In this document: positions 3,932 to 60,905 of the stretch, piece after piece
How positions within the stretch are numbered: the stretch's first letter is position 1
Layout of the letters: every line of letters begins with the position of its first letter
Assembly: GCF_014207985.1 (NCBI RefSeq)
Contig: NZ_JACHMI010000002.1
Location: 1-64,000, forward strand
Direction of reading: 5' to 3'
Origin: Nonomuraea rubra
Lineage (GTDB): Bacteria; Actinomycetota; Actinomycetes; Streptosporangiales; Streptosporangiaceae
Length of the DNA: 64,000 bases
Made by a program: the position numbers and the translations under genes
Notes under the pieces: generated by a model
Told to the model about the DNA's origin: nothing
The model's input: the letters and a program-made list of their open reading frames with translations, nothing else
Database searches by the model: none

Positions 3932-3947
3932 ATAGCGGCACCGCAAT
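3932..3947 (+). promoter_or_regulatory. Dispersed site, family 1
   Basis: ATAGCGGCACCGCAAT, followed by CAAC, lies 68 bases before the next start codon. It is one of about 12 copies of a near-palindrome spread over the element. Confidence 0.6.
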
Positions 3948-4015
3948 CAACAAACAGGCTCCGGCCCCGCAACCGCCACGGTCGCGGGGTCGCGGCATGT
4001 CACAAGGGAAACGAC

Positions 4016-5074
4016 ATGACCACGATGATCACCCGAACGCACGCCGAACTGCTCATCACAGTCAAGGCAATCCGCTACGCGGGCGGAACCACCAGCCAGA
4101 TGCTCGCGACCATCGCCCGGATGCTGACCAACCCGGCCACCCCCGAGCAGTACGAGGACAACCTGCACACCGTCACCGCGACGGCCGCCCACCACTTCGC
4201 CTACGAGAAGGACACCGGCCCCACGTCGTACCCGGAGGACGCCACGTACGACGACCTCACCCCCGAAGGACAGATGGTCGTCATCCGGCACGTCATCTTC
4301 GACCTCGGCGAGCGCGACCAGCCGGCCGAGACGGCTGTCACCACGGCCCAAACGACAACCCCGACCACTCGCTACCTGGCCATCGCGATCGACGAGTCCG
4401 ACACCTTCGCGCTCGGCCTCGACGGTGCTCCCCTCCCCGCGCACCACCTGGTGGCCATCGCCGAAGCGGAGGAGGACACCGAAGACGGCGAGACGACGCT
4501 GTTCCCCCTGCCGAAGATCGTCGCGATCCTCGACTCCGGCGTCCCCCTCGACAACGACGCCCCCGAGCTGGACGGCCTGCTCGACCGTCACGGCTGGAAG
4601 CTGATCGGCGAGAGCGACGGTTACCCCGACAACGACGAGCACGAGGTCACCCCGACCAACCCGACGACGACGCCACCCGCCATCGAGTACCACGACGGCC
4701 GCCCGATGCCGTACTACGTCGCCGGCCGGAAGAAGCTCGACGAGCGCGGCTCGCTGGTGGACGCGCTCCTCGTGACCACGTTCACCGCCGCCCAGGCCAC
4801 CGACCCCGGCAAGTGGGGCCTCGACCACACCGGCGTCGAGCTGCTGCTGACCGGCGCCGTCCGCGCCGCCGTGGACGACCGGCTCGACTTCGAGCAAGTC
4901 GTCCGGGGCAACGCCGGGCATGACTGCAAGCGACGCCTGCTCATGGCCGCGTGCGCGGCGATCGACACCGCGCTCGAAGTGATCGGGGAGCGCGCCACCT
5001 GCCGCACCTGCGACGGCCCCGCCGTCTCCCGCACGACGGACGGCAAGCCCGTCTGCGCCAACACCGGCCACTGA
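4016..5074 (+). CDS. Hypothetical protein with C-terminal CxxC
   Basis: 352 residues. The ATG at 4016 was chosen because AAGGGA sits seven bases upstream and coding bias begins there. The sequence is acidic and soluble, with an N-terminal helical region, a Thr/Pro-rich linker (about residues 115-130 and 235-245) and a C-terminal CRTCDG pair that could bind zinc. No family was recognised. It heads a rightward string of small genes and is preceded by two kinds of palindromic site, so it is probably regulated. Confidence 0.75.
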   Translation: MTTMITRTHAELLITVKAIRYAGGTTSQMLATIARMLTNPATPEQYEDNLHTVTATAAHHFAYEKDTGPTSYPEDATYDDLTPEGQMVVIRHVIFDLGERDQPAETAVTTAQTTTPTTRYLAIAIDESDTFALGLDGAPLPAHHLVAIAEAEEDTEDGETTLFPLPKIVAILDSGVPLDNDAPELDGLLDRHGWKLIGESDGYPDNDEHEVTPTNPTTTPPAIEYHDGRPMPYYVAGRKKLDERGSLVDALLVTTFTAAQATDPGKWGLDHTGVELLLTGAVRAAVDDRLDFEQVVRGNAGHDCKRRLLMAACAAIDTALEVIGERATCRTCDGPAVSRTTDGKPVCANTGH

Positions 5075-5097
5075 GCCAGGACGAAAGGACCAGGAAC

Positions 5098-5247
5098 ATG
5101 CTGCGCGACCTGATCGACCTGCCCGAGGGCTGGGAGTGGAGCATCTACGGCGACACTCCTGTCTGCCCGGACGGCTACGAGATCGAGGTGGACGGCACCT
5201 GCCCGGACGGGCACGTCTCGCCCCTCCTTGACATGGGCCTCATCTGA
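5098..5247 (+). CDS. Small hypothetical protein (49 residues)
   Basis: Starts at ATG 5098, ten bases after a GAAAGGA ribosome site. It is acidic with three Cys (TPVCPDGYEI..GTCPDG) in two similar CPDG segments, perhaps a tiny metal-binding fold. It is 23 bases downstream of the preceding gene and probably in the same transcript. Confidence 0.65.
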   Translation: MLRDLIDLPEGWEWSIYGDTPVCPDGYEIEVDGTCPDGHVSPLLDMGLI

Positions 5248-5280
5248 CCTTCGCTCCCGCCACCCCGAATGGAGCCCACC

Positions 5281-5847
5281 ATGGACACCACAACCCGCGG
5301 CATCGCCGAAGACCTGCTGCTCCTCATGCGCCGCCTCAACCAGGCCGATGACCAGAAGCTCGCCCGCGACCCCGGACCGTACGGGCACGCCCAGCGCGCG
5401 CTCATCGCGATCCTGGAGACCGCCGACTGGGGGCCCGCCCACGCCAGCGAAGCCATCCAGCACGCCATGCAGGAAGGCTGCACGCTGTTCGACGCGATGA
5501 TGGCCACCCGCGCAGATGAATGCGGTACCGCAATCAACGGCGCGAGCACAGTAAACGCGTCTATCGCCGAGATCAGTGACGAGCTGGCGCAGCAGATCGC
5601 TGACGCGATCGGTGAGCACTTCCACGGCGACCGCAACTACTGGCCGAAGGTCATGGACGCTGACTGGGACGACGGCGACGGCCGCGTCATCGTCTGGGAG
5701 CACGGCGTGGACGAGTGGACGTTCCTCGTCTCCCACGGCGGCCGGCCGGACTATTCGCCGATCGAGTACGAGCCGGTCCCGCTGCCCGCGGGCGTGTGGG
5801 TCGAGGCGGTCAACCACTGCGCCCTGCGGGTCATGTCCCGCGAGTAG
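5281..5847 (+). CDS. Hypothetical protein
   Basis: 188 residues from ATG 5281; an in-frame ATG at 5269 lacks a ribosome site, whereas GGAG lies upstream of 5281. The N-terminal half is helical (TTRGIAEDLLLLMRRLN). The C-terminal half is richer in beta-type residues with acidic WDDGDGR and WEHGVDEW segments. A family-1 site (5519-5534) lies inside the reading frame. No family was recognised. Confidence 0.7.
   Translation: MDTTTRGIAEDLLLLMRRLNQADDQKLARDPGPYGHAQRALIAILETADWGPAHASEAIQHAMQEGCTLFDAMMATRADECGTAINGASTVNASIAEISDELAQQIADAIGEHFHGDRNYWPKVMDADWDDGDGRVIVWEHGVDEWTFLVSHGGRPDYSPIEYEPVPLPAGVWVEAVNHCALRVMSRE
5519..5534 (+). promoter_or_regulatory. Dispersed site, family 1, inside a gene
   Basis: AATGCGGTACCGCAAT followed by CAAC. 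The core GCGGTACCGC is a perfect 10-bp palindrome. It lies within coding DNA, which would fit a roadblock-type site rather than a promoter operator. Confidence 0.6.
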
Positions 5848-5860
5848 GCCCGACAACGCC

Positions 5861-5891
5861 GATGGCCGGGCCCGCCACAGGCCCGGCCATC
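5861..5891 (+). terminator. GC-rich hairpin, probable terminator
   Basis: A 12-bp perfect stem (5861-5872 with 5880-5891) and 7-base loop lie just after the stop codon of the preceding gene. It has no T-run, as is usual for actinobacterial terminators. Confidence 0.6.
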
Positions 5892-5999
5892 CCAACACCA
5901 CAAAAAGCCCCGGACCCTCGTCGCCACAACGAAGACCCGATGCGTTTCAGCGTAACGCACCCGCCCGGCCGCGACAGACCGCCCAGAAGGGGAGCAATC

Positions 6000-6164
6000 G
6001 TGACCCGTCCCGCCAACAGCCACCACGACGACCTTGAGCACGAGCCGGTGAGCATTACCGACGTCTTCCCCGTCGAGATCCACGACCAGTGCAACGACTG
6101 CCCGGCCCACGCCGACGCGCCCCCGGCGCAGCACAGCTACTCCTGCTCCACCAACTGGCGGTAG
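6000..6164 (+). CDS. Small hypothetical protein (54 residues)
   Basis: GTG 6000 is preceded by AAGGGGAG at good spacing; an upstream in-frame ATG (5940) has a weaker site. Three cysteines (CNDCPAHADAP and a late SCSTNWR) suggest a small metal-binding peptide. No family was recognised. Confidence 0.55.
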   Translation: MTRPANSHHDDLEHEPVSITDVFPVEIHDQCNDCPAHADAPPAQHSYSCSTNWR

Positions 6165-6170
6165 ATCGCC

Positions 6171-6425
6171 ATGCGTAACGACAACCTCGACCAGGAGCGC
6201 GGCTACGCCTACATGGCCGTCAGCCCGAACGGCGGCGGCAACATCTACGTCACCGGCCGCCCCTGCATCGCCTGCGCCCCTCCTCAGCCCGACCCCAACA
6301 ACCGGCACCCCGTGCCCTGCGAGTGGGCGCGAGCACACGCCTGGAACACCGTCCGCAACTGGGGCGCAGGCGCCCACGTTCGCCGCATCCCCATCACCGA
6401 GCTTCCGCCCGAGCTCCAACCCTGA
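6171..6425 (+). CDS. Hypothetical protein
   Basis: 84 residues, six bases after the preceding stop, so probably co-transcribed and translationally coupled. It contains a CIACAPPQ pair and a later Cys, with a Trp/Arg-rich middle (CEWARAHAWNTVRNW). No family was recognised. Confidence 0.65.
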   Translation: MRNDNLDQERGYAYMAVSPNGGGNIYVTGRPCIACAPPQPDPNNRHPVPCEWARAHAWNTVRNWGAGAHVRRIPITELPPELQP

Positions 6426-6438
6426 AGGGAACCGTCCC

Positions 6439-6717
6439 ATGCCCATGCAGCCCAACCGCAGCGCCTCCGGAATCATCCAGCGGCTGCGCAACGACGGATT
6501 CACCGTCAACGTCCCCGACAAGCCGTACCGCCGCATCTACCAGCTCCGGCTCAGCCGCGGCTGGTACTTCGGCACCCTCGACGTCTCCGCTGACAAGGGC
6601 CGCGCCCTGCGGATCTCCCTCACCTGGCAGCCCAACCGCAGCACCCGCAAGCGCGACGGCGCCACCCACATCATCGGCCTCCTCAACACCCTGCCTCAGC
6701 ACGGCTGGGACAACTGA
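6439..6717 (+). CDS. Hypothetical protein
   Basis: 92 residues starting at ATG 6439 after a GAAGGGA ribosome site. A small basic protein with an N-terminal helix (SASGIIQRLRNDGF) and predicted beta strands (RIYQLRLSRGWYFGTLDV). Part of the 6.0-8.8 kb gene string. Function unknown. Confidence 0.7.
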   Translation: MPMQPNRSASGIIQRLRNDGFTVNVPDKPYRRIYQLRLSRGWYFGTLDVSADKGRALRISLTWQPNRSTRKRDGATHIIGLLNTLPQHGWDN

Positions 6718-6728
6718 AAGGGAACCTC

Positions 6729-7457: not shown

Positions 7458-7858
7458 CGAGCACTCTCATCGGGCTGCTGCTCGCCGCGAGACCAGCCTG
7501 GGTCACCCGCGTGCAGCTCCGGACGGCCGAGGACGGTGACTGCTTCGACCTCCGGCACCTGACCGCCGCGCTGACCCTCGGCGATGGCGACAACGACGCC
7601 GAGATCTCCGAGGTCGAGGAGTACCCCGCCGCCCGCCTCATCGTCGGCCGGCTGTCGCACCCCGGCGACCGGCCCCGCAACGAGCTCGCCGCGGCGCTGC
7701 TCAGCCACTACTTCCCGCCCGCCGCCAACCGGTGGTGGCTCGACATCCGCGGCGGCGTCATCATCACCGGCCTGTGCCAGTGCGGCGCCCCCGCGGACCT
7801 TCCCAACCCCGTCTACGACACGGCACGCGTCGTGTCTGCACTGAGAGGAACGCGATGA
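7454..7858 (+). CDS. Hypothetical protein
   Basis: 134 residues from GTG 7454, overlapping the phosphatase stop as GTGA, so translation is coupled. The middle is acidic (LGDGDNDAEISEVEEYP), with a late CQCG pair. Function unknown; its fixed position directly after the phosphatase suggests a shared role. Confidence 0.7.
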   Translation: MTSTLIGLLLAARPAWVTRVQLRTAEDGDCFDLRHLTAALTLGDGDNDAEISEVEEYPAARLIVGRLSHPGDRPRNELAAALLSHYFPPAANRWWLDIRGGVIITGLCQCGAPADLPNPVYDTARVVSALRGTR

Positions 7859-8781: not shown

Positions 8782-8790
8782 TCTATCCAC

Positions 8791-8818
8791 GCTGGCCCTG
8801 CCATATGGCAGGGCCAGC
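8791..8818 (+). terminator. Perfect 12-bp hairpin, probable terminator
   Basis: Arms 8791-8802 and 8807-8818 are perfectly complementary around ATAT. It ends the preceding gene string. Confidence 0.7.
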
Positions 8819-8824
8819 ACGTCA

Positions 8825-8840
8825 ATAGCGCTACCGCAAT
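8825..8840 (+). promoter_or_regulatory. Dispersed site, family 1
   Basis: ATAGCGCTACCGCAAT lies between the terminator hairpin and the ArdC-like gene. Confidence 0.55.
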
Positions 8841-8868
8841 TAGCCAACTGAACAGGGAGAATGCCACC

Positions 8869-9519
8869 ATGGCGACCACGAAGAGGGGCCGGCGCCGCCC
8901 CGTCACGCAGGCCATAAAGGACCGCAGCGCCGCCAGCCGTACGGCGGCGCGAGAGGCGCTGCACGCCTATGCCGTGCTGTGCCTGAACGACCCGGCCGAA
9001 CTGGAGCGGTTCCGCGACATCGCGGCCAGCATCGGCTGGAAGCTCGACCCCGCCAGCGACGAGCCCGGCTACTCGCTGCAGAACGCGCTGCTCCTGGCCG
9101 CGCAGCGCCGACCGCTCACCCACTGCGGCGGCTTCGACTACTGGCTCAGCCAGGGCCGTGCCGTGGCCGAGGGAGAGAAGTCGCTCGGCACCTTCCGGCA
9201 CATCGGCCGGAAGAAGACCGACGAGGAGAAGGCCAAGGAGAAAGAGCTGGCCGACGACGGCTGGCAGTCCTCCAAGCGCGGGCCCCGCTACTACGTGAAG
9301 AAGGGCACGTTCGACGTCTCCCAGACCGTGCCGCGCGAGCGGTGCCCGCACTGCGGCACCATCCCGGCCAGCGAGGACGACCGCACCACGCAGTGCCCGC
9401 CGGACTGCGCCGCGTTCGCGCCCAGGCCCGGGTCCAAGCCGCCCCGCGTGATCGTCGTCGAGCTGCTGCAGGCCCAACTCCTCGACGCCGACGAGGCCGA
9501 GGGCGAGGCCAACCAGTGA
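8869..9519 (+). CDS. ArdC-like ssDNA-binding / antirestriction protein
   Basis: 216 residues. Residues about 67-155 match the ArdC N-terminal domain: YSLQNALLLAAQRRPL, then FDYWLSQGRAVAEGEKSLGT and KKGTFDVSQT. In this family that domain binds single-stranded DNA and can protect entering DNA from restriction. The metallopeptidase half of full ArdC is absent; instead a CPHCG..CPPDC zinc cluster (C159, C162, C176, C180) follows. It is first in a run of DNA-methylation genes, which supports an anti-restriction role. Confidence 0.8.
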   Translation: MATTKRGRRRPVTQAIKDRSAASRTAAREALHAYAVLCLNDPAELERFRDIAASIGWKLDPASDEPGYSLQNALLLAAQRRPLTHCGGFDYWLSQGRAVAEGEKSLGTFRHIGRKKTDEEKAKEKELADDGWQSSKRGPRYYVKKGTFDVSQTVPRERCPHCGTIPASEDDRTTQCPPDCAAFAPRPGSKPPRVIVVELLQAQLLDADEAEGEANQ

Positions 9520-14569: not shown

Positions 14570-14576
14570 GCCGCTA

Positions 14577-14592
14577 ACTGCGGTACCGCAAT
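14577..14592 (+). promoter_or_regulatory. Dispersed site, family 1
   Basis: ACTGCGGTACCGCAAT begins eight bases after the methyltransferase stop codon and precedes a hairpin. Confidence 0.6.
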
Positions 14593-14597
14593 TCGCT

Positions 14598-18593: not shown

Positions 18594-19595
18594 TCACGCG
18601 GTGGGATCGGAAGCGATCACCAGAACACCACGACGCCGGACGGCCGACCGGCCCCCGGGCAAGTTCACGGCCTTCTGCCCGTGCCAGTGCGTCACCAACC
18701 GGTCCAGGGCCCGCACGTGAGTGGCCGACAGCACGCCGGACGGGGAGCCCGCGGCGATGGCCGCTCGCCGCAGTACCCGTCGTCTTACCGCGTCGGGAAG
18801 CTTCTCAAGCTCGGCCACGGCCAGCGTCACCGACTCGCCGAGGTCGCCTCGTACAGAGTGCTGGTAAGCCGAGTCGGCCCACTCGTCGAGCGCGTCGGCG
18901 TCTTCCCGCGCGAGCGCGGCGGTTCGAGCCAGCGCCTCGATCACCCCCGGCCCCAGCTCTTGCTCCAGGAGTGGAAGGATCTTGTGGCGCACTCGGACGC
19001 GTGTGTAGCGCGGGTCGGCGTTGTGTGGGTCGTCCCACAGGTCGAGGTTCTGCGCCCGGCAGGCGGCCACGGTGGTAGCCCTGGGAAGGTGCAGGAGGGG
19101 GCGCCGGTAGCGTCCCGTCGTGGCCGCCATGCCGGACAGGGACCGGGGTCCGCTGCCCCTGGCCAGCCCGAGAAGCACCGTTTCGGCCTGGTCGTCGCGG
19201 GTGTGTCCGAGCAGCACGGCCTCTGCGCCATGCCGGTCGGCTGCCTCGCTGAGCGCGGCATATCGGGCCTCTCGTGCTGCCGCCTCTGGGCCGCCCTCCC
19301 CGCCCACGGTAACGGTGAGGACTTCCGAGGGGGTGAGGCCGAGGTCCGTGCCCAGGGCTGCCACGGTTTCCGCCCTCTGGCGCGAGCCCTCTTGGAGTTG
19401 GTGATCCACGGTCAGCAGGCCGGCGCGCAAGCGGAGGCGGGGGGCGACGAAGGCCAGTGCTGCGGCCAGGGCCAGCGAGTCGGCCCCGCCGCTGCATGCG
19501 GTGAGAATGAGCGCGTCCTTCTGGACGTCGGCCAGGGCTTCGCGGACGGCTCGGCGGACGTCGGCTACGGCTGGATGCGGACCCACATGTGTCAT
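18594..19595 (-). CDS. tilS: tRNA(Ile)-lysidine synthetase
   Basis: 333 residues, the normal length for actinobacterial TilS. The PP-loop SGGADS is at residues 35-40, followed by [52 protein letters not shown] and the helical TilS C-terminal part. The enzyme converts C34 of the tRNA-Ile CAU anticodon to lysidine and is an essential chromosomal function. Here it lies among phage genes, leftward, 21 bases behind a putative ribbon-helix-helix gene, so it looks like element cargo or a duplicate host gene. All active-site motifs are intact. Confidence 0.92.
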
Positions 19596-19616: not shown

Positions 19617-20150
19617 TCAGTGTGCCTGCGGCTGCTGGGCGTCGCTCTGCTCCAGGTCGAGCTCGTCCAGGTATGCCTCCATGGCGTCGTTGAGGACGGC
19701 CATGCCACCCATCTGCTCCTGGTGGCACGCGGCGACGAGCCGCGCTCGCGTGTTCCGCTTGAGCCGCACTACGGAGCCTGGTGCAACCGGACGGTCGCGG
19801 GGTGTGCCAGGCGGCGGCGGGTTGGGGTCACGGGGCACTTTGAGATTGGCCTTGTCGATGGGCTCGGGGAACACGGCCGGGATGGGCGGCTGCAGTGCGT
19901 CGCAGTAGGTGTTGATCGCCAGTTCCCACGCTTCCTGCGGGCCCATGCCCATGTCGTCGAGGGCGGTGGTGAGGCGGTCGTCGATGTCGCTGTACAGGTA
20001 GATCGTGGTGGGGACGAGGTTTGTCCAGCGCACTGCGCGGAGGCGACGTGGCCCACCTCGGCGGGTCGATTGCGGTTCCGCTGGCGGCTGTTGTCCGGCT
20101 GCGGAGTCCTCGGATGGGTTGAGCTGAGGTGGCTTCGGGGCGCGCGGCAT
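19617..20150 (-). CDS. Putative tandem ribbon-helix-helix DNA-binding protein
   Basis: 177 residues. After a Pro-rich N-terminus there are two segments with strand-helix-helix character: TTIYLYSDIDDRLTTALDDM with EAWELAINTYCDAL, and SVVRLKRNTRARLVAACHQE with MAVLNDAMEAYLDEL. This could be a single-chain pair of ribbon-helix-helix units suited to a palindromic operator. It precedes tilS in the same direction, forming a two-gene operon. Its own coding sequence holds a family-1 site in the leftward orientation. The fold is inferred, not matched to a named family. Confidence 0.6.
   Translation of the reverse strand: MPRAPKPPQLNPSEDSAAGQQPPAEPQSTRRGGPRRLRAVRWTNLVPTTIYLYSDIDDRLTTALDDMGMGPQEAWELAINTYCDALQPPIPAVFPEPIDKANLKVPRDPNPPPPGTPRDRPVAPGSVVRLKRNTRARLVAACHQEQMGGMAVLNDAMEAYLDELDLEQSDAQQPQAH
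20069..20084 (-). promoter_or_regulatory. Dispersed site, family 1, reverse orientation
   Basis: Read on the minus strand it is CCAGCGGAACCGCAAT followed by CGAC. It lies early in the leftward gene, so its orientation follows local transcription. Confidence 0.45.
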
Positions 20151-20878: not shown

Positions 20879-21249
20879 CCGCCCAGCAGTCCGAGCCGGC
20901 CCGGCGCCCGCGCGAGGTCTTCCGCTTCGGCTTCTACGCGTGGAATATCAGCGCCGCCCTGCGCATCGTCGAGGGTCGCGAACCTGACCGCGTCAACGTC
21001 AAGGAGGCCGCCACTCTGCTGTGGCTGATCTACGTGAACGAGTCCCACGCCGCCACCGTGGACCTCGCCCAGCCCGTGCTCCTCGCCCCCTTCGCGGGCA
21101 CCGGCCACATCCCCATCGACGGCTGGCACCGCATCTGGAAGGCAAGACGTGAAGGCGTCGAGACGCTTCCCGCGCTCGCCCTCACGCCCGAGGAGGAATT
21201 CCGGGTCCGGATGCACGGAGGCGACAAAGGCCCTGGCTATCACCGCTAA
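20875..21249 (+). CDS. Small ParB-like (ParB/Srx fold) protein, tentative
   Basis: 124 residues from ATG 20875. The C-terminal half has GHIPIDGWHRIWKARREGVETLPALALT, which resembles the short ParB N-terminal core in which a Gly-Trp/His-Arg turn precedes a strand. Helix FYAWNISAALRIVEGRE and strand DRVNVKE precede it. The match is short and the classic GERR box is degenerate, so this is tentative. The stop codon overlaps a family-1 site. Confidence 0.55.
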   Translation: MTAQQSEPARRPREVFRFGFYAWNISAALRIVEGREPDRVNVKEAATLLWLIYVNESHAATVDLAQPVLLAPFAGTGHIPIDGWHRIWKARREGVETLPALALTPEEEFRVRMHGGDKGPGYHR

Positions 21250-21264
21250 TAGCGGTACCACAAT
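21249..21264 (+). promoter_or_regulatory. Dispersed site, family 1
   Basis: ATAGCGGTACCACAAT followed by CAG begins on the last base of a stop codon and precedes a hairpin. Confidence 0.6.
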
Positions 21265-21270
21265 CAGTTT

Positions 21271-23106: not shown

Positions 23107-23607
23107 ATGTATGCTTCGGCCATGACGAAACGAGGCCCCCGCGGGCCGGTGCCGATCTACCAGGTGATCATCAAGGCCATCAAGGACGACATCGCCGCCG
23201 GCACGCTGAGGCCCGGTCAAGCCCTGCCCACAGAGGCCGAGATGTGCACCATTCACCAGGCGTCGCGACTGACGGTGCGCAGAGCCCTGGAGGTCCTGCG
23301 CGAGGAAGACGTCATCTACACCGTTCGCGCCGAAGGGTCCTACGTGGGGCCCCGCGACGCCCCGCAGATCCGCGAGCCGTGGGAGTTCGAGAAGATCGCG
23401 TCCGAGTTCGCCGACCGCATCAAGCGGGGCGACCTCAAGCCGGATGAGGTGCTCCCCTCGCAGTCGGAGCTAATCGAGCAGTACGGCGTGGCCAAGAAGA
23501 CCGCCCGTGCCGCCATGGCCTTGCTGCGAGATCAGGGGTGGGTGTACACGGTGCCCACGATCGGAACGTTCGTTGCAAGCCGCGATAAATGGCCTACGGA
23601 GAGTTGA
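23107..23607 (+). CDS. GntR-type regulator with two winged-helix domains
   Basis: 166 residues from ATG 23107 with AAAGG upstream. The first GntR helix-turn-helix is at about residues 15-80 (PIYQVIIKAIKDDIAAGTLR, then LPTEAEMCTIHQASRLTVRRAL). A second, related unit follows at 95-160 (FADRIKRGDLKPDEVLPSQS, then YGVAKKTARAAMALL). No effector domain is present. The duplication could let one chain grip both halves of an operator. It is monocistronic, flanked by a terminator and a convergent gene, and is likely a transcription regulator of the element. Confidence 0.85.
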   Translation: MYASAMTKRGPRGPVPIYQVIIKAIKDDIAAGTLRPGQALPTEAEMCTIHQASRLTVRRALEVLREEDVIYTVRAEGSYVGPRDAPQIREPWEFEKIASEFADRIKRGDLKPDEVLPSQSELIEQYGVAKKTARAAMALLRDQGWVYTVPTIGTFVASRDKWPTES

Positions 23608-25757: not shown

Positions 25758-26282
25758 CTACTCCGGCCGGAAGATCCGAAGCTGAGCTTCTGTCGCGTTC
25801 AGGGTCGCCTCGATCTGGGCCAGCATGATCGTCTCTATCTGGCGGCGCTGGTCGCCTGGAACGCCCTTCAGGCCGCGTATCTGTTGCAGCATCGCCTGAA
25901 GTCTTTGCTGCACATGTTCAGGAGTTACGTCTGCGTCGATCGCCGCCAGTGCGGGGTCCGTCTTGGTCCGCTCGCGGATCCAATCGCGGAACAGTGCGGC
26001 CGCCCCAGGCCGGCCGCGCTCGTACAGGTCGTCCGGGGTGATGGTGGCTTCGTGTGCCAGGTCGGTGATGGCGGCGGCCATGAGTACGAGTTCGCGGTCT
26101 TCCGGGACCTTCTCGCCGGACTCGATGCGTCGCCATGTCGGCTCGGACAACGCGTCGCCGGCCAACTCCTTCGCGCGTGCGGCGGCGGCGCGAGTGGAGA
26201 TGCGCTTCTTGAGCCCTCCCGGGTTGTTGCGACGTTCAATGAGGAACTGAACCACTTCTGAAGGCTTGTTGAGGTCGGCCAC
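25758..26282 (-). CDS. XRE-type DNA-binding protein, candidate repressor
   Basis: 174 residues. Helix-turn-helix at about residues 28-65 (ISTRAAAARAKELAGDALSE, then PTWRRIESGEKVPE), followed by a helical region that may dimerise. The gene faces left from a gap (26283-26566) holding several family-2-like sequences, with a rightward early gene string on the other side. That is the layout of a phage immunity or lysogeny switch. The repressor role is inferred. Confidence 0.75.
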   Translation of the reverse strand: MADLNKPSEVVQFLIERRNNPGGLKKRISTRAAAARAKELAGDALSEPTWRRIESGEKVPEDRELVLMAAAITDLAHEATITPDDLYERGRPGAAALFRDWIRERTKTDPALAAIDADVTPEHVQQRLQAMLQQIRGLKGVPGDQRRQIETIMLAQIEATLNATEAQLRIFRPE

Positions 26283-26566: not shown

Positions 26567-26872
26567 ATGCCCAACGGCATCCTCCGCTGGGAAGACCCAG
26601 CGCCCGTCAGAACTCGCACCAACAAGGAGTACGAGCCTGTAGCCGCCGAACTGCAAGCCCGCCCCAACGAGTGGGCGGTCATCGCAGAGAACCCCGACAC
26701 CCCCGAAGGCAGGCGTGACGCCAACCGCCTGTTCAACGCCGTCAAGAACGGCTACCGAGGCTGGAACAACGACGACGGCGGCACGTTCGAGGCCACCACC
26801 CGCACCGTCACCAAGAACGGCGGAGCCAAGGTCATCCTCGTTCACGTGCAGTACGTCCCCGCCAGCTCATAG
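26567..26872 (+). CDS. Small hypothetical protein
   Basis: 101 residues. A compact alpha/beta sequence (YEPVAAELQARPNEWAVIAE, TPEGRRDANRLFNAVKNGY, AKVILVHVQYV). Similar short proteins are frequent early genes in actinophages. It is the first gene of the rightward string after the XRE gap, and its stop overlaps a family-1 site. Confidence 0.7.
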   Translation: MPNGILRWEDPAPVRTRTNKEYEPVAAELQARPNEWAVIAENPDTPEGRRDANRLFNAVKNGYRGWNNDDGGTFEATTRTVTKNGGAKVILVHVQYVPASS

Positions 26873-26884
26873 CGGTACCGCAGT
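26869..26884 (+). promoter_or_regulatory. Dispersed site, family 1
   Basis: ATAGCGGTACCGCAGT followed by CAG overlaps a stop codon and ends five bases before the next start codon. A protein bound here could block transcription or cover the ribosome-site DNA. Confidence 0.6.
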
Positions 26885-26888
26885 CAGC

Positions 26889-33784: not shown

Positions 33785-33788
33785 GCCA

Positions 33789-33804
33789 GAAGCGGAACCG
33801 CAAT
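33789..33804 (+). promoter_or_regulatory. Dispersed site, family 1
   Basis: GAAGCGGAACCGCAAT followed by CAG, five bases after a stop codon and upstream of the next ribosome site. Confidence 0.5.
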
Positions 33805-33830
33805 CAGGTAGTCGAGCAGGAGCAACGCCC

Positions 33831-38902: not shown

Positions 38903-38908
38903 ACGCTA

Positions 38909-38924
38909 ATAGCGGTACCGCTAT
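38909..38924. promoter_or_regulatory. Dispersed site, family 1 (perfect palindrome)
   Basis: ATAGCGGTACCGCTAT is a perfect 16-bp palindrome, seven bases after a stop codon and 25 bases before the initiator start at 38949. It is well placed to repress the initiator gene. Confidence 0.7.
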
Positions 38925-38948
38925 CGTTGCGGGACGCCTCTTCCCTCG

Positions 38949-40448: not shown

Positions 40449-40555
40449 TTTGCCTTCAGGCCGGCCCGTTTTGTGACCTAACCGTTATAAATCCGCCGGA
40501 AAACCGTTACAAAAATTGGGCCCCCAAAGATCCTTACTGGTCTACCGTTTGTCAT

Positions 40556-41461
40556 GTGCAGATACGAACAAGCGAACGGCTCGCGTGGCTCACCGCAGTT
40601 GCGGCGCTCGCGTTCCTAGTAGCCAACACGCAGGCAGGAGGGGATGTGACCACGGCAACGCTGGTAGCGGACGAACCAACCGCGACCGTCACTGTCAGCG
40701 GTCCCCCCGGCCCGCCCGGACCCCAGGGCCCCCAGGGCGACCCCGGACCGATGGGCCCCCAGGGACCGCAAGGCGAACCCGGCGCGTCCGGCCCGCCCGG
40801 ACCGCAGGGCAACGCCGGACCGATGGGAACCCCCGGACCTTCCGGCCCGCCCGGTCCCCAGGGCGACCCCGGACCTACGGCAACCGTCACCGCCGTACCG
40901 GTCCCCGGGCCCAAGGGCGACAAGGGCGACAAGGGCGACGCCGGACCCCAGGGCGAGCAAGGGCCCGCCGGACCGTCCGGCCCTCCGGGACCATCCGGCC
41001 CACCCGGACCCCAGGGCGACCAGGGCGACACCGGCCCCAAGGGCGACCCCGGACCGACCGGACCGCAGGGCGACCCCGGACCCACCGGAAGCGCCGGGCC
41101 ATCCGGCCCGCCCGGCACCGGCGACCCCGGACCGACTGGAGCCGCAGGGCCCGCCGGACGGGACGGCACCGCAGGGAGCCCCGGACCGTCCGGCAAGCCC
41201 CGATCGCCCGGACCCAAGGGCGACCAGGGCGACCCCGGAACGGCGGACACGCCGGAACCCGGCGAGATCGACGCGGCGAACACGGCCAACGGCGACCCCG
41301 TGACCGTGTGGGCCGCGTGGCTTGCCGCCCTGCTGGCAGTCGGAGCCGCCACGCTCGGACTGCTGATCAGGCGGCGACGCCGCAACCGCAGACCGGCCAG
41401 CGAAACCGCTGGTCAACCTGCTAACAGCGGTACCGCTATCGACGACACACAGCAGCTCTAA
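40556..41461 (+). CDS. Collagen-like membrane protein
   Basis: 301 residues from GTG 40556, with no ribosome site visible (possibly leaderless). An N-terminal hydrophobic segment ([18 protein letters not shown]) precedes about 170 residues of Gly-X-Y triplets ([17 protein letters not shown]..), then a C-terminal transmembrane helix ([20 protein letters not shown]) and basic RRRRRNRRP. This predicts a membrane-anchored triple helix facing outside. Phage collagen-like tracts usually sit in virion fibres; the membrane anchor here is unusual. A family-1 site overlaps its 3' end. Confidence 0.8.
41424..41439. promoter_or_regulatory. Dispersed site, family 1
   Basis: ACAGCGGTACCGCTAT lies within the last codons of the collagen-like gene. 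Confidence 0.6.
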
Positions 41462-44629: not shown

Positions 44630-44709
44630 GACTGAATATCGTGCGCGGGCGAAGCGACGTTAGGCTGCGCGGTTTCGCGGCGGACACGAGCGGAGGAGGC
44701 GGATCGTTG

Positions 44710-44725
44710 ATTGCGGTGCCGCTGT
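44710..44725 (-). promoter_or_regulatory. Dispersed site, family 1, reverse orientation
   Basis: Read on the minus strand it is ACAGCGGCACCGCAAT followed by CAAC, identical over most of its length to the site at 3932. It lies upstream of the leftward membrane-protein gene and points with it. Confidence 0.6.
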
Positions 44726-44796
44726 TGGCTTGCGCCTGGCGGGGTGGGTGTGTAACACTTCCGGGCGACGGAGAGACTTGTGCCCTCGGACCGATC

Positions 44797-45066
44797 ATGG
44801 TTCGAGGGCTTTCCGCTGTTCGGGGGGTGTTGGTGTTCCCTGCGACGGCGAAGACTGCTGCTGTCCGGCTGGGCCGGGAGGCGGTGACGATCCGGCAGTG
44901 GGCGCGCCGGTATGGCGTGCGTGTGCTGGGGCGAGCCAGCCGCGAGGTCGTGTACGACTTCGCTGATCTGGCGACGATCGAGGGCTGTATCTGGCGGGGC
45001 GACGACGTGCCTGATTCGCCGGAGGGCCGGGATGCGTTGCGGGCTCGGCTGGCGGCGGCTGCGTAG
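44797..45066 (+). CDS. Small MerR/excisionase-like helix-turn-helix protein, tentative
   Basis: 89 residues from ATG 44797 (GTG 44827 possible). The segment PATAKTAAVRLGREAVTIRQWARRYGVRVL fits a winged-helix fold with the order helix-turn-helix then RYG, as in small phage DNA-binding proteins. An acidic tail follows. It precedes another small helix-turn-helix gene. Excisionase or regulator are both possible. Confidence 0.55.
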   Translation: MVRGLSAVRGVLVFPATAKTAAVRLGREAVTIRQWARRYGVRVLGRASREVVYDFADLATIEGCIWRGDDVPDSPEGRDALRARLAAAA

Positions 45067-45091
45067 GAGCAATCAGACAGGGGTGGCTGTG

Positions 45092-45319
45092 ATGGTTCGG
45101 AAGTATCAGCGGGTGGCGGGCGCGGAGCGCGAGGCGCTGAAGGCGGAGCTGAAGCGCCGGTACATGGACGGGGAGTCGATCCGGCGGCTGTCGATCTCGA
45201 CGGGCCGCTCGTACGGGTTCGTTCACCGGCTGCTGGAGGAGGCGGGGGCGCCGCTGCGGCCGCGGGGCGGCAACCAGCGGCCGGCTCCTGTGGTTGTAGA
45301 CGGGCGACCATCTAGCTGA
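45092..45319 (+). CDS. Small helix-turn-helix protein of an actinobacterial family
   Basis: 75 residues from ATG 45092. The segment YMDGESIRRLSISTGRSYGFVHRLLEEAGAPLRPRGG matches a short helix-turn-helix protein widespread in Streptomyces-like bacteria, whose GRSYGFVH helix is characteristic. It probably binds DNA; the target is unknown. It is convergent with the next gene, overlapping it by eight bases. Confidence 0.75.
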   Translation: MVRKYQRVAGAEREALKAELKRRYMDGESIRRLSISTGRSYGFVHRLLEEAGAPLRPRGGNQRPAPVVVDGRPSS

Positions 45320-46197: not shown

Positions 46198-47166
46198 GTG
46201 AACGCTGAGCTGATCGTCGTCCGGAGCGAAGACGTCGCGCTGCCGCTGGACCTGCCGCCGATCATTCTCGACCTGACCCGGGCGTGGCTGTGGTCGTTCG
46301 ACTCGAAGAACACGCGGGACACGTACGAGCGGTACATTCGGCGATGGTTCGAGTTCTGCAACGAGACCGGCCTCGATCCGCTGGAGGCCCGCAAGCCGCA
46401 CGGCGACGTGTTCTCCCGCTGGTTCCAGGAGACGGCCCGCCGACCACCGAAGCCGAAGACAGTGGCATTAGTCCTGTCCACGGTGTCGTCCTGGTACGAG
46501 TACCTGCACGAGACCGAAGCCCTCGACGCCAACCGGTTCAAGAAGACGCGACGACCGAAGATCCCCCGCAAGCACTCCGAGACGGTCGCGCTCACCAAGG
46601 GCGAGGCGCGGGACCTCCTCCGGGCGGCCGACGCCGACCATGGCCGGGAACGGCTGCGCACCGCGGCGCTGCTCCGGCTGCTGCTGCAGACCGGCGTCCG
46701 CATCTCCGAGGCGGTGAACGCGCAGATCGACGACCTCGGGTTCGCCCGTGGGTATCGGACGCTGCGCATCACGGTGAAGGGCGGCGACACGATTACCCGG
46801 CGGCTGCCGGTGGAGGCGACGCACGCGCTGGATGTCTACCTCGCTGAGCGGGCGCACCGCGAAGGGGTCGAGCTGCAGGACCTGCGGGGCCCGCTATTCG
46901 CGACCTCGACGGGCCAGAGCTGGAGCAGGTCGAAGGCGTTCGAGCTGGTGCGGCGCATTGCCGCCCAGGCGGGCATCACGTCGAAGGTGGGGCCGCACTC
47001 CCTGCGGCACACCTACGCATCGCTGGCGCAGGAGGCCGGCGTCGCGATGCGGCAGATCCAGCTCGACCTCAACCACGCCGACGTGTCCACGACGGAGATC
47101 TACTTGCACAGCCGGGACCGGCTGGAGAAGGACGCCTCTCAGGTGGTGGCGTCGCTGCTGGAGTAG
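46198..47166 (+). CDS. Tyrosine recombinase, XerC/D-like (second copy)
   Basis: 322 residues from GTG 46198 with CAGGGGA upstream; ATG 46153 would add 15 residues. A SAM-like core-binding domain (about 25-115) precedes a catalytic domain with TGVRISEA (Arg I), VKGGDTITRR (Lys), HSLRHTYASLAQEAG (His-x-x-Arg), LNHADVSTT (His/Trp position) and EIYLH (Tyr). All catalytic residues appear present. It is distinct in sequence from the left-end integrase. It may resolve genome multimers, invert a segment or be a cargo recombinase. Confidence 0.9.
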   Translation: MNAELIVVRSEDVALPLDLPPIILDLTRAWLWSFDSKNTRDTYERYIRRWFEFCNETGLDPLEARKPHGDVFSRWFQETARRPPKPKTVALVLSTVSSWYEYLHETEALDANRFKKTRRPKIPRKHSETVALTKGEARDLLRAADADHGRERLRTAALLRLLLQTGVRISEAVNAQIDDLGFARGYRTLRITVKGGDTITRRLPVEATHALDVYLAERAHREGVELQDLRGPLFATSTGQSWSRSKAFELVRRIAAQAGITSKVGPHSLRHTYASLAQEAGVAMRQIQLDLNHADVSTTEIYLHSRDRLEKDASQVVASLLE

Positions 47167-48871: not shown

Positions 48872-49501
48872 GTGCCCGCTATCGTGTCGCAGACCTATCG
48901 AATGGTCTCGGTCGCCGACCTCGAACCGCACCCCGACAACCCTCACCAGGGCGACGTGGACGTGATCGCCGAGTCGATCAAGAAGAACGGCTTCTACGGC
49001 ACGGTCCTGGTCCAGAAGTCGCAGATGCGGATCATCGCTGGTGAGCACCGCTGGCGCGGCGCGAAGGCCAACCACTTGCGGCAGGTGCCGGCCCTGATCA
49101 TCGACGTTGACGACGACACCGCCACCCGGATCATGCTCGCCGACAACCGGACCGCCGAGTTCGGCGCGTACGACGACCACGCCCTTGCCGACCTGCTGCA
49201 CGGCCTGGACGACCTCGACGGCACCGGCTGGACGGAGCAGGACCTCGACGACCTGGCCGACGCCATCGCCGCCGACAACGCGGTAGCCCTCGGCCCCGAA
49301 CGCGCTCCGGTCCCGGGCGGTGGCCGCGCCGACCAGGCCGGCGCCGACGACGAAGAAGAGCTGCCGGAACCGGGCGACGCTGAGACGCATACGCGGCCCG
49401 TTGTCTGGGGCGTCGTGGTCACCTGCGACAGCGAGGCCGAGCAGGTGCAGCTCCTCAACCAGCTCACGGGCCAGGGCTGGAACGTCCGCGCCCTGATGTA
49501 G
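48872..49501 (+). CDS. ParB-like nuclease/CTPase-domain protein
   Basis: 209 residues from GTG 48872. The ParB N-terminal domain spans about residues 10-100: VADLEPHPDNPHQGDVDVIA, SIKKNGFYGTVLVQK, AGEHRWRGAKA and LADNRTAEFGAYD. There is no classical ParB helix-turn-helix; the acidic C-terminus ends in a small alpha/beta segment (VTCDSEAEQVQLLNQLTGQG). Phage ParB-like proteins next to terminase genes are common and are associated with DNA modification. It is followed at once by the ATPase-acetyltransferase fusion. Confidence 0.85.
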   Translation: MPAIVSQTYRMVSVADLEPHPDNPHQGDVDVIAESIKKNGFYGTVLVQKSQMRIIAGEHRWRGAKANHLRQVPALIIDVDDDTATRIMLADNRTAEFGAYDDHALADLLHGLDDLDGTGWTEQDLDDLADAIAADNAVALGPERAPVPGGGRADQAGADDEEELPEPGDAETHTRPVVWGVVVTCDSEAEQVQLLNQLTGQGWNVRALM

Positions 49502-55878: not shown

Positions 55879-55887
55879 GGAGACCCC

Positions 55888-56312: not shown

Positions 56313-56327
56313 ACAGGAGGGTGGCTG

Positions 56328-57902: not shown

Positions 57903-59878
57903 TGACCATCACTCCAGCCGCTGCCATCGAGGAGGGTCTGGAGCAGGCGCGCAAGGTCGCCGCCATGTACGCCGACGCGGAGACGGCGCTGCTGGAGCGC
58001 ATCGCCGCGCGGGTCGGCAAGGACCTTGACAACGACGATGGCGACGACTGGGCGGACAAGCGGCTCTCCGAGGTGACGCAGCTCCGGAAGGAAGCCGAAG
58101 CGATCGTCCGCCGGTTGCAGGCCGCGTCGAGAGCTGCCGCTGAGGCGGCGGTGCTGGAAACGTGGGCCGAAGGCATGGACGCCGCGGTGCGCGGTGCCGT
58201 GTTGCAGGTCCACGACCGGAAGGTCCGGAAGCGGCTGGCCAAGGTGCTGGAGGACGCGAAGAACCTCGGCGCGAGCCGGGGCATCAACGCCGGCCAGGGC
58301 GTTGCCGAGCTGGCCGCGCAGACCGTTCGTATGGTCACGTCGGTCCATGAGGGCGCGCTGCGGGCGGTGGACGACATCTTCCGCAACGTCGTCGCCGAGA
58401 CTGCCAGCCGAGCGCTGATCGGCGCGGAGACTCGGCGGGAGGCGGCGCAGCGTGCGCTCGACCGGTTCACGGCCGAGGGCATCAAGGGGTTCACTGACTC
58501 GGCCAACCCGCCCCGGACCTGGAGCATGGCCAGCTACGCCGAGATGGCTATGCGGACGGCCGTCGCTCGGGCGGCGGTGGACGGTCATCTGTCCACGCTG
58601 CGCGAGGCCGGGATCAACCTGGTCAGCGTGTCGCGGCTGCCGTACACGTGCGACCGATGCGCCCGCTGGGAGGGTGAGGTACTGGCCCTGTCCGGATCGG
58701 CGGGCACGCGCGTGGAGGAGAACCCAGCCACGGGCGTGCAGGTGTTCGTGCAGGTCGCGGGGACGGTCGCGGAGGCCCGGTTGGCGGGCCTGCTGCACCC
58801 GAACTGCGGGCACAGCCTGAACGCCTACCTGCCTGGAGTGTCGAGGCCGGCGCCCGTTGTGCAGTCGAAGACCACCTACAAGGAGTCGCAGCGGCAGCGC
58901 TACCTGGAGCGGAAGGTCCGCGAGACCAAGCGGCGCGCGGCGGTTGCGCTCGACGACGACGCCCGCGCGAAGGCGGATGCGAAGACGGCCGCCTACCAGC
59001 AGCAGCTCAAGGAGCTGACGAAGGCGACAGGGCTGCGACGCAGAACCGATCGGGAGAGGGCCGACGCCCCGTCTGCGGACCTGGATGAGCTGACCGACCG
59101 GGAACTCGCCGACCTGGCCAGCAAGTTCAGCCACGACGAGCAGGCGCTGGCCCGGCTTGAGCAGGAGATGAGCCGCCGCGACGAGGCCGACGCGGCGGCT
59201 GCGCGGGCAGCCGGCCCGGCTGCGCAGGACGACCCGATCGCCGCGTTGTCGGAGATCAACGACCTGGGCGACCTGACCGACGACCACGTGTTGGCGCTGA
59301 TGGAGCGGTACCGCGACGACGAGCAGGGCATGGCCCGCGCGCTCGACGAGCTGGACCGCATCGAGAGGCAGACTCGCGCGCGTGAGAACTGGTCGTGGAA
59401 CTGGCGCGAGGAGGAGACCGACGCCGACCGGGCGATTTCGGACCTCATCGCGTCGGGCCGCTACTCCTACATGGACGCGTACGCCGAGGTGCACGGGCTG
59501 GACCCGGCCGAGCTGGACCGTCAGGAGCGGCGGGCCCTGCTGGAGGCGGACCGCCGGCCGGGCGAGGACATCGATCAGACGGTGCGCCGCCTGTACGCCG
59601 AATGGCTCGACCAGGCGTACGAGCGGGCCGAGGCCGACACGAACGGCTTCCTGCTGAACGCCGAAGGGCGTGCGGCCGGGATCAACGAGCGGTCGCTGTT
59701 CTCCGGGCCGGCCGCGCGCGCCAGGAAGTACGCCAGCGAGGAGCTGCTGCGCTGGTGGGCGAACAACGCGCGGCTCACCCTCACAGAGTTCCGCGCGCAG
59801 TGGCTCGGGCGGGAGTCCGACCGGCGGGCGGCCGAGCAGATCCGAGCGGGCGGCGCCGGGAGGGAGTTCGGAGTATGA
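57902..59878 (+). CDS. Phage minor capsid protein with long C-terminal extension
   Basis: 658 residues from ATG 57902. Residues 1-330 match the minor capsid 2 family of SPP1/A118-like phages: helical start, TWSMASYAEMAMRTAVARAA, VSVSRLPYTCDRCARWEGEV, and LLHPNCGHSLNAYLPG. The CDRC..HPNC pattern suggests metal binding. The C-terminal 320 residues are charged and helical with no family match, containing several DELTDRELADLASKF-like segments. That makes it longer than typical homologues and possibly ejected with DNA. Confidence 0.88.
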   Translation: MTITPAAAIEEGLEQARKVAAMYADAETALLERIAARVGKDLDNDDGDDWADKRLSEVTQLRKEAEAIVRRLQAASRAAAEAAVLETWAEGMDAAVRGAVLQVHDRKVRKRLAKVLEDAKNLGASRGINAGQGVAELAAQTVRMVTSVHEGALRAVDDIFRNVVAETASRALIGAETRREAAQRALDRFTAEGIKGFTDSANPPRTWSMASYAEMAMRTAVARAAVDGHLSTLREAGINLVSVSRLPYTCDRCARWEGEVLALSGSAGTRVEENPATGVQVFVQVAGTVAEARLAGLLHPNCGHSLNAYLPGVSRPAPVVQSKTTYKESQRQRYLERKVRETKRRAAVALDDDARAKADAKTAAYQQQLKELTKATGLRRRTDRERADAPSADLDELTDRELADLASKFSHDEQALARLEQEMSRRDEADAAAARAAGPAAQDDPIAALSEINDLGDLTDDHVLALMERYRDDEQGMARALDELDRIERQTRARENWSWNWREEETDADRAISDLIASGRYSYMDAYAEVHGLDPAELDRQERRALLEADRRPGEDIDQTVRRLYAEWLDQAYERAEADTNGFLLNAEGRAAGINERSLFSGPAARARKYASEELLRWWANNARLTLTEFRAQWLGRESDRRAAEQIRAGGAGREFGV

Positions 59879-60045
59879 CCATTTCCGAGACTGACCGCAG
59901 AGCGGCCGTGACGTTCGGTCGTCTGGCTGGCGAGCGCGGCATGCCGGTCACCGTCTGCCCGTACCCGGTGCGGGGCGATGACCGGGCGCGTGCGCTGCGG
60001 CTGCTGTGGATGCGCACGTACGCGCGGCACACCTCGGGCGCATAG
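59875..60045 (+). CDS. Rmf/CrpP-like small protein
   Basis: 56 residues from ATG 59875, overlapping the preceding stop. GRLAGERGMPVTVCPYPVRG and RALRLLWMRTYARH fit the short Rmf/CrpP pattern (Gly-Ala helix, CPY turn, Trp helix). Rmf binds ribosomes. A CrpP homologue was reported to phosphorylate ciprofloxacin, a claim still debated. The actual role in phages is unknown. Confidence 0.55.
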   Translation: MTISETDRRAAVTFGRLAGERGMPVTVCPYPVRGDDRARALRLLWMRTYARHTSGA

Positions 60046-60121
60046 ACGCGCCCTTCTTCGGTCCGCCAGGCGCGGGCCTTTCCCATGTTCCGACGACACG
60101 CTCCAGGAGGGCGATCTCGTC

Positions 60122-60883
60122 ATGCCTGAAAACACTGTGCCGACCACCGACGACAGCGGCGAAGGCCAGCCGCAGCAGGAGCAGAACCCTCCGGCTGGGG
60201 CCGGGGTCACGCCGTCCGAGCCGCCGGCGGCGGACGAGGCGGGGGTCAACCCCGACGCCAAGCGCGTGGACCAGCTCCCGACGTGGGCGCAGAAGCTCAT
60301 CAAGGACACCCGCGCGGAGGCGGCCGACTGGCGGTCCAAGCTGAAGGACGCGCAGAAGACCGCCGACGAGGCGACCGCCAAGCAGGGGCCGTCTCCGGAG
60401 GAGATCACCGAGAAGGTGAAGACGGATTTCGCTCAGCAGATCGCCAAGGCGTTGGGCCTGGCGGCTGAGGAGGAGACGCCGATCGACCCGCAGAAGGTGA
60501 TCGAGACTCTGACGGCCGAGCGGGACACCACGGCGAAGGAGCGCGACTCGGAGAGGGAACGGCACCGCCGTGCCTTGATCGAGCTGGCGGTGCACCGCGC
60601 CAGTCAGAAGGTCGGTGCGGACCCGGACGCCCTGCTCGATTCCAGGTCGTTTCTCAAGGCGGTCCGGGACATGGACCCGGACGCCGACGACTTCTCCACC
60701 AGCCTGACGGAGACGATCCAGACGGCGGTGGAGAACAACCCGAAGTTCAAGGCGGCCACCCAGGCGGGGCCGCCCGCGCGCTCGGGGGGCGAGTTCACCG
60801 GCGGGCCTGGTGAGCGAGCGCCGAGTTCCGAGCCCTCCATTGACGAGTTCCGCGCCAGGCGTAAGAAGCGCGCCTCGTCCTAG
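60122..60883 (+). CDS. Capsid scaffolding protein
   Basis: 253 residues from ATG 60122 with CAGGAG upstream. Low-complexity acidic N-terminus, long central coiled coil (KLKDAQKTADEATAKQ, TLTAERDTTAKERDSERERH) and a basic C-terminus (FRARRKKRASS) that would contact the coat protein. The position directly before the major capsid gene is diagnostic. It guides prohead assembly and is then lost. Confidence 0.85.
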   Translation: MPENTVPTTDDSGEGQPQQEQNPPAGAGVTPSEPPAADEAGVNPDAKRVDQLPTWAQKLIKDTRAEAADWRSKLKDAQKTADEATAKQGPSPEEITEKVKTDFAQQIAKALGLAAEEETPIDPQKVIETLTAERDTTAKERDSERERHRRALIELAVHRASQKVGADPDALLDSRSFLKAVRDMDPDADDFSTSLTETIQTAVENNPKFKAATQAGPPARSGGEFTGGPGERAPSSEPSIDEFRARRKKRASS

Positions 60884-60889
60884 TCGCTG

Positions 60890-60905
60890 ATTGCGGGACC
60901 GCAAT
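60890..60905. promoter_or_regulatory. Dispersed site, family 1, before the capsid gene
   Basis: ATTGCGGGACCGCAAT lies in the 50-base scaffold-capsid gap, seven bases after a stop codon. It is the only copy seen in the late region. Confidence 0.6.

Follow-up and report, generated by a model that had tools for sequence, protein, structure and literature searches.

A dispersed 24-bp near-palindrome on a probable Nonomuraea rubra prophage may belong to a stoperator-like immunity system

The 12.88-Mb genome of Nonomuraea rubra is assembled in two contigs, the 12.78-Mb chromosome (C1) and a second contig of 96,733 bp (NZ_JACHMI010000002.1, here C2). Bases 1-64000 of C2 form the window, the 64,000-nucleotide stretch that was analysed. 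C2 encodes phage proteins, including a terminase, a portal, head proteins, and a major capsid protein (60934..61872, +) that is 62.6-64.2% identical to the capsids of Streptomyces phages Hiyaa, Spocter, Galactica, and Keanu. A tyrosine integrase is encoded at 138-1397 and a small excisionase-like helix-turn-helix (HTH) protein near the opposite end of C2. When the end of C2 is joined to its start, the resulting segment is identical at 84 of 89 positions to C1:7753925-7754012, which implies a circular C2 carrying an attP-like site whose chromosomal counterpart is unoccupied in the assembly. From its sequence, C2 probably exists as a circular prophage. The chromosomal segment carries a reading frame resembling what we take to be the end of an acyl-CoA dehydrogenase. 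Dispersed along C2 are 17 copies of a near-palindrome. Two genes of the window are the leading candidates to encode its binder: one for a 174-aa XRE-type HTH protein (25758..26282, -), the repressor proposed here, and one for a tandem ribbon-helix-helix (RHH) protein (19617..20150, -; 177 aa from its inferred start), a rival binder or co-regulator.

The initial annotation of the window reported 12 dispersed copies of a 16-bp near-palindrome. A search with the 16-mer allowing up to three mismatches returned 21 strand matches, all at the 12 reported places, where 100 dinucleotide shuffles gave 0.13 on average. All 12 copies are therefore real, and they are near-palindromic as claimed, but the unit is longer than 16 bp. 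De novo palindrome discovery on C2 gave as its top motif a 24-bp near-palindrome, GCYRAYWGCGG-TA-CCGCWRTYRGC, with 17 copies, five of them past the window (24-mer starts C2:64213, 66933, 67433, 78667, and 93761). A matrix trained on the 12 window sites recovers these five held-out copies. With this matrix the 17 sites score 21.8-35.9 bits, the next match on C2 8.7 bits, and the best match in 500 kb of host chromosome 11.3 bits, the enrichment confined to the element that the initial annotation had proposed as a check. All eight exact matches to GCGGTACCGCNAT in the whole genome are on C2 and none is on the chromosome, so the motif is not equally dense in the host. With up to one mismatch allowed, GCGGTACCGCNAT has 50 forward and 57 reverse matches genome-wide, versus 44 and 40 for a reversed-pattern control. 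The shuffles, the GCGGTACCGCNAT counts, and the matrix scan together rule out a chance motif or a host-wide motif. Even spacing was tested and the spacing is not distinguishable from random (coefficient of variation 0.78, P 0.23). We regard it as almost certain that these are protein-binding sites of one phage regulator.

In the window most sites lie at the end of one gene or just before the next, roughly as had been noted. Seven of the 12 are within 10 bases of, or overlap, an upstream stop codon, counting an open reading frame that ends at 41424. The left arm of the site at 21245..21268 (+; 33.2 bits, here and below with the 12-site matrix) holds the TAA of the upstream gene and is followed by a hairpin-like repeat; that of 26865..26888 (+; 32.0 bits) holds a TAG, with an ATG immediately 3', and this site follows the gene that opens the run transcribed divergently from the XRE gene. 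The site at 33785..33808 (+; 21.8 bits) is immediately 3' of a stop codon. Three sites without assigned strand also belong here: 14573..14596 (32.3 bits), 3 nt beyond the end of a cytosine-methylase gene, 38905..38928 (32.1 bits), 2 nt beyond a stop codon, and 41420..41443 (33.0 bits), which includes the stop of the open reading frame 40516-41424 (+). That frame, whose DNA repeats imply collagen-like Gly-X-Y repeats, was overlooked by automatic gene calling. Three sites precede genes: 3928..3951 (+; 33.5 bits), with the next gene 64 nt on at 4016, and two with a gap of 24 nt, 8821..8844 (+; 32.8 bits) upstream of the gene at 8869 and 60886..60909 (no strand assigned; 34.1 bits) upstream of the major capsid gene. 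Two placements correct the initial annotation. The site at 5515..5538 (no strand assigned; 33.0 bits), reported there as 5519, lies within the called gene 5281-5847. The one at 20065..20088 (-; 22.5 bits) had been placed at or upstream of a leftward gene, but it is inside the RHH coding sequence, where its codons encode PAEPQST, if that gene starts at 20150 as the alignment suggests. The twelfth site, 44706..44729 (-; 29.3 bits), adjoins a promoter-like element, TTGCGC-N17-TAACAC (44730..44758, +).

Related prophages were sought with the major capsid gene as query, and the IMG/VR records retrieved by capsid similarity were read partly or wholly. They carry dispersed palindromes of their own, with 8-21 copies in the stretches read and at least four versions around a common GC core. 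The motif of G002, G003, G004, and G006 is of the same class as that of C2 (class A). G009 and G010 have CGTTGGCG-N4-CGCCAACG, G011 and G013 have CGCCWGCGG/YGYMAGCGG versions, and G012 has CGnCAGCGG. A wider search used a profile built from alignment A1 of the XRE protein. This profile matched 35 of 341 host-family genomes at E 1e-6, and in an even sample of 394 class genomes at E 1e-10 it matched three, all of the host family and one being the host itself. The surrounding 20-40 kb was read for 27 of the 41 matches, and four others were already covered by earlier records. Together with eight earlier records these made 35 regions, or 33 without the duplicates G201a (the G003 phage) and G180 (the same as G009). 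Dispersed GC-core palindromes in the same register are present in 24 of the 33. Eight are without sites, all with distant XRE homologs, and one, G043, has a doubtful motif and was excluded from motif counts. The GC-core motif ranked top in 23 of the 24 regions and second in G194, behind a tandem repeat; under a simpler background it came third in G013. The raw motif-discovery score is no proof for a single 40-kb region, since unrelated motifs score 33-82 in 12 regions of the host.

Instead, we scanned each phage with the matrices of the others at a threshold allowing one match per 500 kb of host. The C2 matrix found 17, 16, 22, 11, and 9 sites in C2, G003, G006, G190, and G219, versus 0, 1, and 0 in G009, G010, and G194. 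Conversely, the G009 matrix found 17, 20, and 10 in G009, G010, and G194 and none in C2, G003, or G006. The class A and B matrices were thus clean, whereas the GCnAGC-class and G011/G013 matrices overlapped each other and partly class A; for example, the G167 matrix found 17 sites in G011 and 9 in G006, and that of G011 found 7 in C2. The eight site-free regions gave 0 or 1 matches, and the phages Hiyaa and Galactica from 0 to 2. With the class-A matrix and a floor of 14 bits, neither of these two virulent relatives has a match, nor do two Nocardiaceae plasmids with related capsids; the Gordonia phage Aleemily has one, of 17.1 bits.

The positions of the sites are conserved within class A. Of the 17 C2 sites, 11 could be tested in G003 and all 11 are kept beside the orthologous gene (background genes, 1 of 79), as are all 10 testable in G006 (background, 1 of 88). 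Across classes, positions are kept in one of four cases in G009 (background, 2 of 35), one of three in G010 (2 of 39), three of seven in G011 (8 of 53), and three of six in G013 (5 of 44). All six relatives compared (G003, G006, G009, G010, G011, and G013) retain a site in front of the capsid gene, each with its own motif. The sites at 8821 and 14573 both have counterparts in G003, G006, G011, and G013; the former has no ortholog beside it in G009 and G010, and the latter is absent from these two.

To describe placement we used 310 sites from 23 phages (G228 excluded). The centres of 229 are intergenic, although 57-90% of the sequence is called coding, and the other 81 are within called genes. 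The 170 intergenic sites between co-directional genes lie at a median of 5 nt past the upstream stop (interquartile range -2 to 46), with the next start at a median of 46.5 nt (20 to 76). The upstream arm of many sites includes the gene's own stop codon.

Such sites could be classical operators, each governing a local promoter of its own without any block to elongation, and in places the sequence fits this. The site at 44706 is likely, from its setting, to be a true operator. Its arrangement with the promoter-like element is kept in six relatives (G002, G003, G006, G195, G170, and G190), with differing spacer length. In G158 and G190, a TTGATC..TA-like sequence lies downstream of sites near the RHH gene, and the -35-like pentamer TTGAC shows a mild excess in the 60 nt on each side of co-directional sites (8 vs about 3.6). 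However, in a scan limited to the sigma-70-type pattern, full promoter-like pairs were not enriched at co-directional, divergent, or coding sites. By the 170 co-directional sites there was one pair on the sense strand versus 2.8 in shuffled sequence, and on either strand the counts were 6 versus 11.8 for co-directional, 2 versus 5.7 for divergent, and 0 versus 4.4 for coding sites. TANNNT is depleted around co-directional sites (14 vs 36 and 10 vs 37.5), and the median gap of 46.5 nt to the next start also speaks against local promoters. As an account of the whole set, separate local operators therefore seem unlikely to us.

The sites are also polarised. The initial annotation held that, where a site is asymmetric, one end follows the direction of transcription. 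By eye, nine of the 17 C2 sites are asymmetric at the informative base. Six fit rightward genes, 20065 fits its leftward gene, 44706 points away from the adjoining promoter-like element, and 78667 has the polarity opposite to expectation. Over ten class-A phages including C2, asymmetric sites run 46:11 in the annotated direction (p 3e-6), a bias in the sense proposed initially. At outward position 6 the class-A upstream arm has 84 T and 21 A, and the downstream arm 57 A and 44 T (p 8e-7). Counted by 41 ortholog groups, the ratio is 21:6 with 14 tied (p 0.006). The bias could have been a by-product of stop codons in the upstream arm, but it persists in sites without such a codon (29:7, categories summed). 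Many sites are symmetric despite the significant bias.

Which protein binds the sites was approached by profiling nine candidate DNA-binding genes across the relatives. Exactly one XRE homolog is present in each of C2, G002, G003, G006, G009, G010, G011, and G013, and the profile found none in Hiyaa, Galactica, the two Nocardiaceae plasmids, or Aleemily. The putative recognition helix of the XRE protein varies with the operator. Helices of the form SEP[TNA]WRR (one SEVAWRR; SEPTWRR in C2) go with the class-A operator RATWGCGG, NEQFWRR/AEQYWRR with GTTGGCGG, Y[TP]NK[VL]RR with GCCWGCGG/GCMAGCGG, and [ST]D[GR][TS]W with GCnAGC. Of the 17 phages with RR after the tryptophan (or V/L), 13 have GCGG as their consensus core; the last G of the core is degenerate in G195, G228, G338, and G009. 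With RN (G326 and G167) the core is GCGn in both phages, and with SS, AN, or SA (G169, G322, and G160) it is GCnn in all three. G162 and G309 have different helices and different motifs. The helix residues after the tryptophan presumably contact bases, as in lambda-type repressors. This stepwise relation is the most telling part of the correspondence between helix and operator.

An AlphaFold model of the XRE protein from a six-sequence alignment has a mean pLDDT (predicted local distance difference test) of 72 and a helical N-terminal half resembling XRE domains. Its fold matches are weak, the best in the PDB being XRE-like at E 0.28, with restriction-system C-proteins among them. Pfam HTH_31 scores 17.3 bits, below its cut-off of 27. 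The protein has no tblastn match at E 0.01 in 50,697 phage records, nothing better than E 0.28 in PHROGs, no match in NCBIfam, and no XRE protein better than E 0.9 among PDB sequences.

A tandem RHH protein acting alone or with the XRE protein is the other candidate of the initial annotation that deserves weighing, and by presence alone it is favoured. The RHH gene is in 21 of the 24 site-bearing regions and in none of the eight site-free regions with distant XRE homologs, and in the three regions lacking it (G002, G194, and G228) the XRE gene is near a contig end. Its 5' coding region contains a site, and its N-terminus and RHH motifs are conserved. The distance between whole RHH proteins correlates with motif distance (r 0.733), and the partial correlation of 0.379 exceeds the 0.195 of the XRE HTH stretch alone. 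Other correlations also count against the XRE protein: its C-terminal part outperforms its HTH (0.462 vs 0.17), the distance over the seven-residue helix has a partial of 0.006 given the rest of the protein, with 53 of 136 windows correlating better, and the RHH strand reaches 0.535 versus 0.287 for that helix. These Mantel-type tests are confounded by phylogeny. On the other side, the predicted DNA-reading strand of the RHH protein varies within class A (TTIYLY, TIAHLY, TVAALY, and TTIRLD) while the motif is constant. In nine class-A phages sharing one motif, RHH strand identity is 0.55 versus 0.61 for the whole protein, whereas XRE helix identity is 0.89 versus 0.66. G219 has a non-A-like RHH strand yet a class-A motif. 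With whole proteins, the partial Mantel correlation of motif with XRE given RHH is 0.435, and that of motif with RHH given XRE is 0.187. Because of the class-A conservation of helix and strand and these whole-protein partial correlations, the XRE protein fits the sites somewhat better; we consider it quite likely to be their binder, and binding by the RHH protein, alone or jointly, unlikely, though this protein is a serious rival.

Two further candidates were set aside. The tandem GntR protein at 23149-23607 (+; 152 aa), with two winged-helix domains and no effector domain, which we take to be the 23107 product suggested initially, has no tblastn counterpart in G009, a phage with 17 sites; the one GntR protein found there by profile matches another gene, of the UTRA type. 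Small HTH proteins encoded at 44884-45319 are unlikely to set specificity, being 54-80% identical across motif classes.

The conserved inverted repeats of phiC31 are dispersed palindromic repressor sites in an actinophage. Phage L5 and its cluster A relatives are described as having 20-30 dispersed repressor sites, mostly away from promoters and oriented with transcription, whose specificity drifts with the repressor (PMC6550527, PMC9283540). C2 and its relatives likewise have many dispersed sites, mostly in short intergenic spaces away from full promoter-like pairs. The L5 site is a 13-bp asymmetric sequence bound by a monomeric repressor, whereas the C2 site is a 24-bp near-palindrome, for which a dimer is expected. 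No homology to the cluster A repressor was found for the C2 XRE candidate by tblastn in the phage records at E 0.01, a search that could overlook remote similarity. In the Streptomyces phage R4, dispersed intergenic sites block RNA polymerase in the prophage (PMC10276819), but the R4 regulator gp52 does not match the XRE profile, and the class-A matrix found no site of 14 bits or more within the 23 of 51 kb scanned. The MabJ prophage has a site on a predicted early promoter oriented opposite to the others (PMC9934374). The 44706 site is similar in that its polarity differs from that of the remaining sites; judged by eye in seven phages, the site at this position is never of the forward type and is reversed in four. 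C.Kpn2I, a restriction-system C-protein of the kind seen among the fold matches of the XRE model, roadblocks elongating RNA polymerase from a site within its own gene; this is a single site for a single gene, without obvious inverted repeats (PMC6237814), and C2 has a genome-wide set. The C2 system thus appears to work like a stoperator system without belonging to the L5 family, by site form and repressor, or to R4 as far as tested. The initial suggestion of a system independent of L5 holds in that the candidate repressor appears unrelated to those of the stoperator systems that could be compared.

Our best reading is a stoperator-like system convergent with L5 and R4, in which a temperate phage carries a phage-wide repressor and operator-stoperator immunity system with the XRE protein as repressor; we give this reading as a whole a probability of about 0.57. 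The XRE protein, probably as a dimer, would occupy the 17 sites and keep the lysogenic state. At least one site would block initiation, namely the one next to the promoter-like element (44730). At most others, in short gaps of co-directional runs or within genes, bound repressor would, by analogy with L5 and C.Kpn2I, block elongating RNA polymerase, so that leak-through lytic transcription would be stopped every few kilobases. We lean slightly towards elongation block as the action of most sites. Sites and repressor would drift together, giving several presumptive immunity groups. The stoperator interpretation of the initial annotation is to this extent supported, by sites that are confined to the element, mostly off promoters, polarised, and conserved in position.

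Several observations weigh against this reading beyond those that favour the RHH protein. The 81 sites within called genes, the mild excess of TTGAC, and the polarity of 78667 fit it poorly, and the promoter scan covered a sigma-70-type pattern only. In 76 of 108 sites it is the upstream rather than the downstream arm that is closer to the symmetric consensus. L5 sites function in one orientation only (PMC9283540), which a near-palindrome less readily explains. In class A the gap that separates the XRE gene from its divergent neighbour never holds a site, and the nearest one in C2 is 582 nt off. Neither XRE nor RHH homologs were found in the partial virus records G004, G005, G007, and G012, which have some sites and are all fragments.

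Extrachromosomal maintenance offers another use for dispersed sites. C2 is probably circular with the matching chromosomal site empty, and it encodes a ParB_N-domain protein at 48872, so the sites might be parS-like partition or nucleoid sites. Yet G201, G170, G190, and G180 keep their sites though they are within contigs of 0.6-12.8 Mb and so apparently integrated, partition needs neither the placement after stops nor the polarity with transcription, and no ParA family matched among the fewer than 40 of 133 called proteins run against Pfam. We consider this explanation very improbable. RNA hairpins acting as terminators or processing sites, suggested by the sites directly after stop codons and by strong hairpins no more than 45 nt from some of the 170 co-directional sites (downstream in 26 cases, upstream in 14), are scarcely credible and were set aside, as the arms do not covary (positions 7/18 form Watson-Crick pairs in 46 cases versus 58 expected under independence), T-runs of four or more follow just 5 of the 170, and 81 of the 310 sites are within genes.

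The stoperator systems reported in the cited papers come from mycobacterial phages of cluster A and its relatives and from Streptomyces phages of the R4 kind. Among the papers listed by a literature search covering few subscription journals, none describes the present system. A further unrelated system would show that silencing along the whole length of a prophage evolved repeatedly. We put at even odds the broader proposal that Nonomuraea and its relatives harbour an independently evolved, genome-wide transcription-blocking immunity with an undescribed XRE repressor family, near-palindromic sites that encode direction, and at least four specificity groups arising by coordinated change of repressor and sites. 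The phages also form a natural repressor-operator series for studying the joint shift in specificity of a repressor and some 17 sites, and for testing whether near-palindromic sites act directionally on RNA polymerase.

C2 has other genes of note. A second tyrosine recombinase (46198-47166, +) has tblastn matches in seven of 15 relatives compared. No match among the 15 was found for a TilS-like tRNA lysidine synthetase gene (18594-19595, -) or for a leftward five-gene cargo run beyond the window (C2:79383-83901), which encodes SHMT-like, ABM monooxygenase, PhyH-like, LPG-synthase-like (below cut-off), and methyltransferase proteins. Palindromes of other kinds were also seen. Hiyaavirus relatives have an unrelated AT-rich palindrome, with 26 copies in Hiyaa (TTYAATTRAA core) and 19 in Galactica (TGATWYAATTRWATCA), many between small genes as judged by eye. 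The Prescottella plasmid NZ_CP027794 has 18 copies of TGACnTRWWGWWCWWYAnGTCA, 17 of them at 56.0-67.3 kb among small genes. The G201, G002, G006, G190, and G195 regions each have four or five palindromes like GGGGAnGTCYRGACnTCCCC packed into some 200 bp, which may mark an origin or a partition site.

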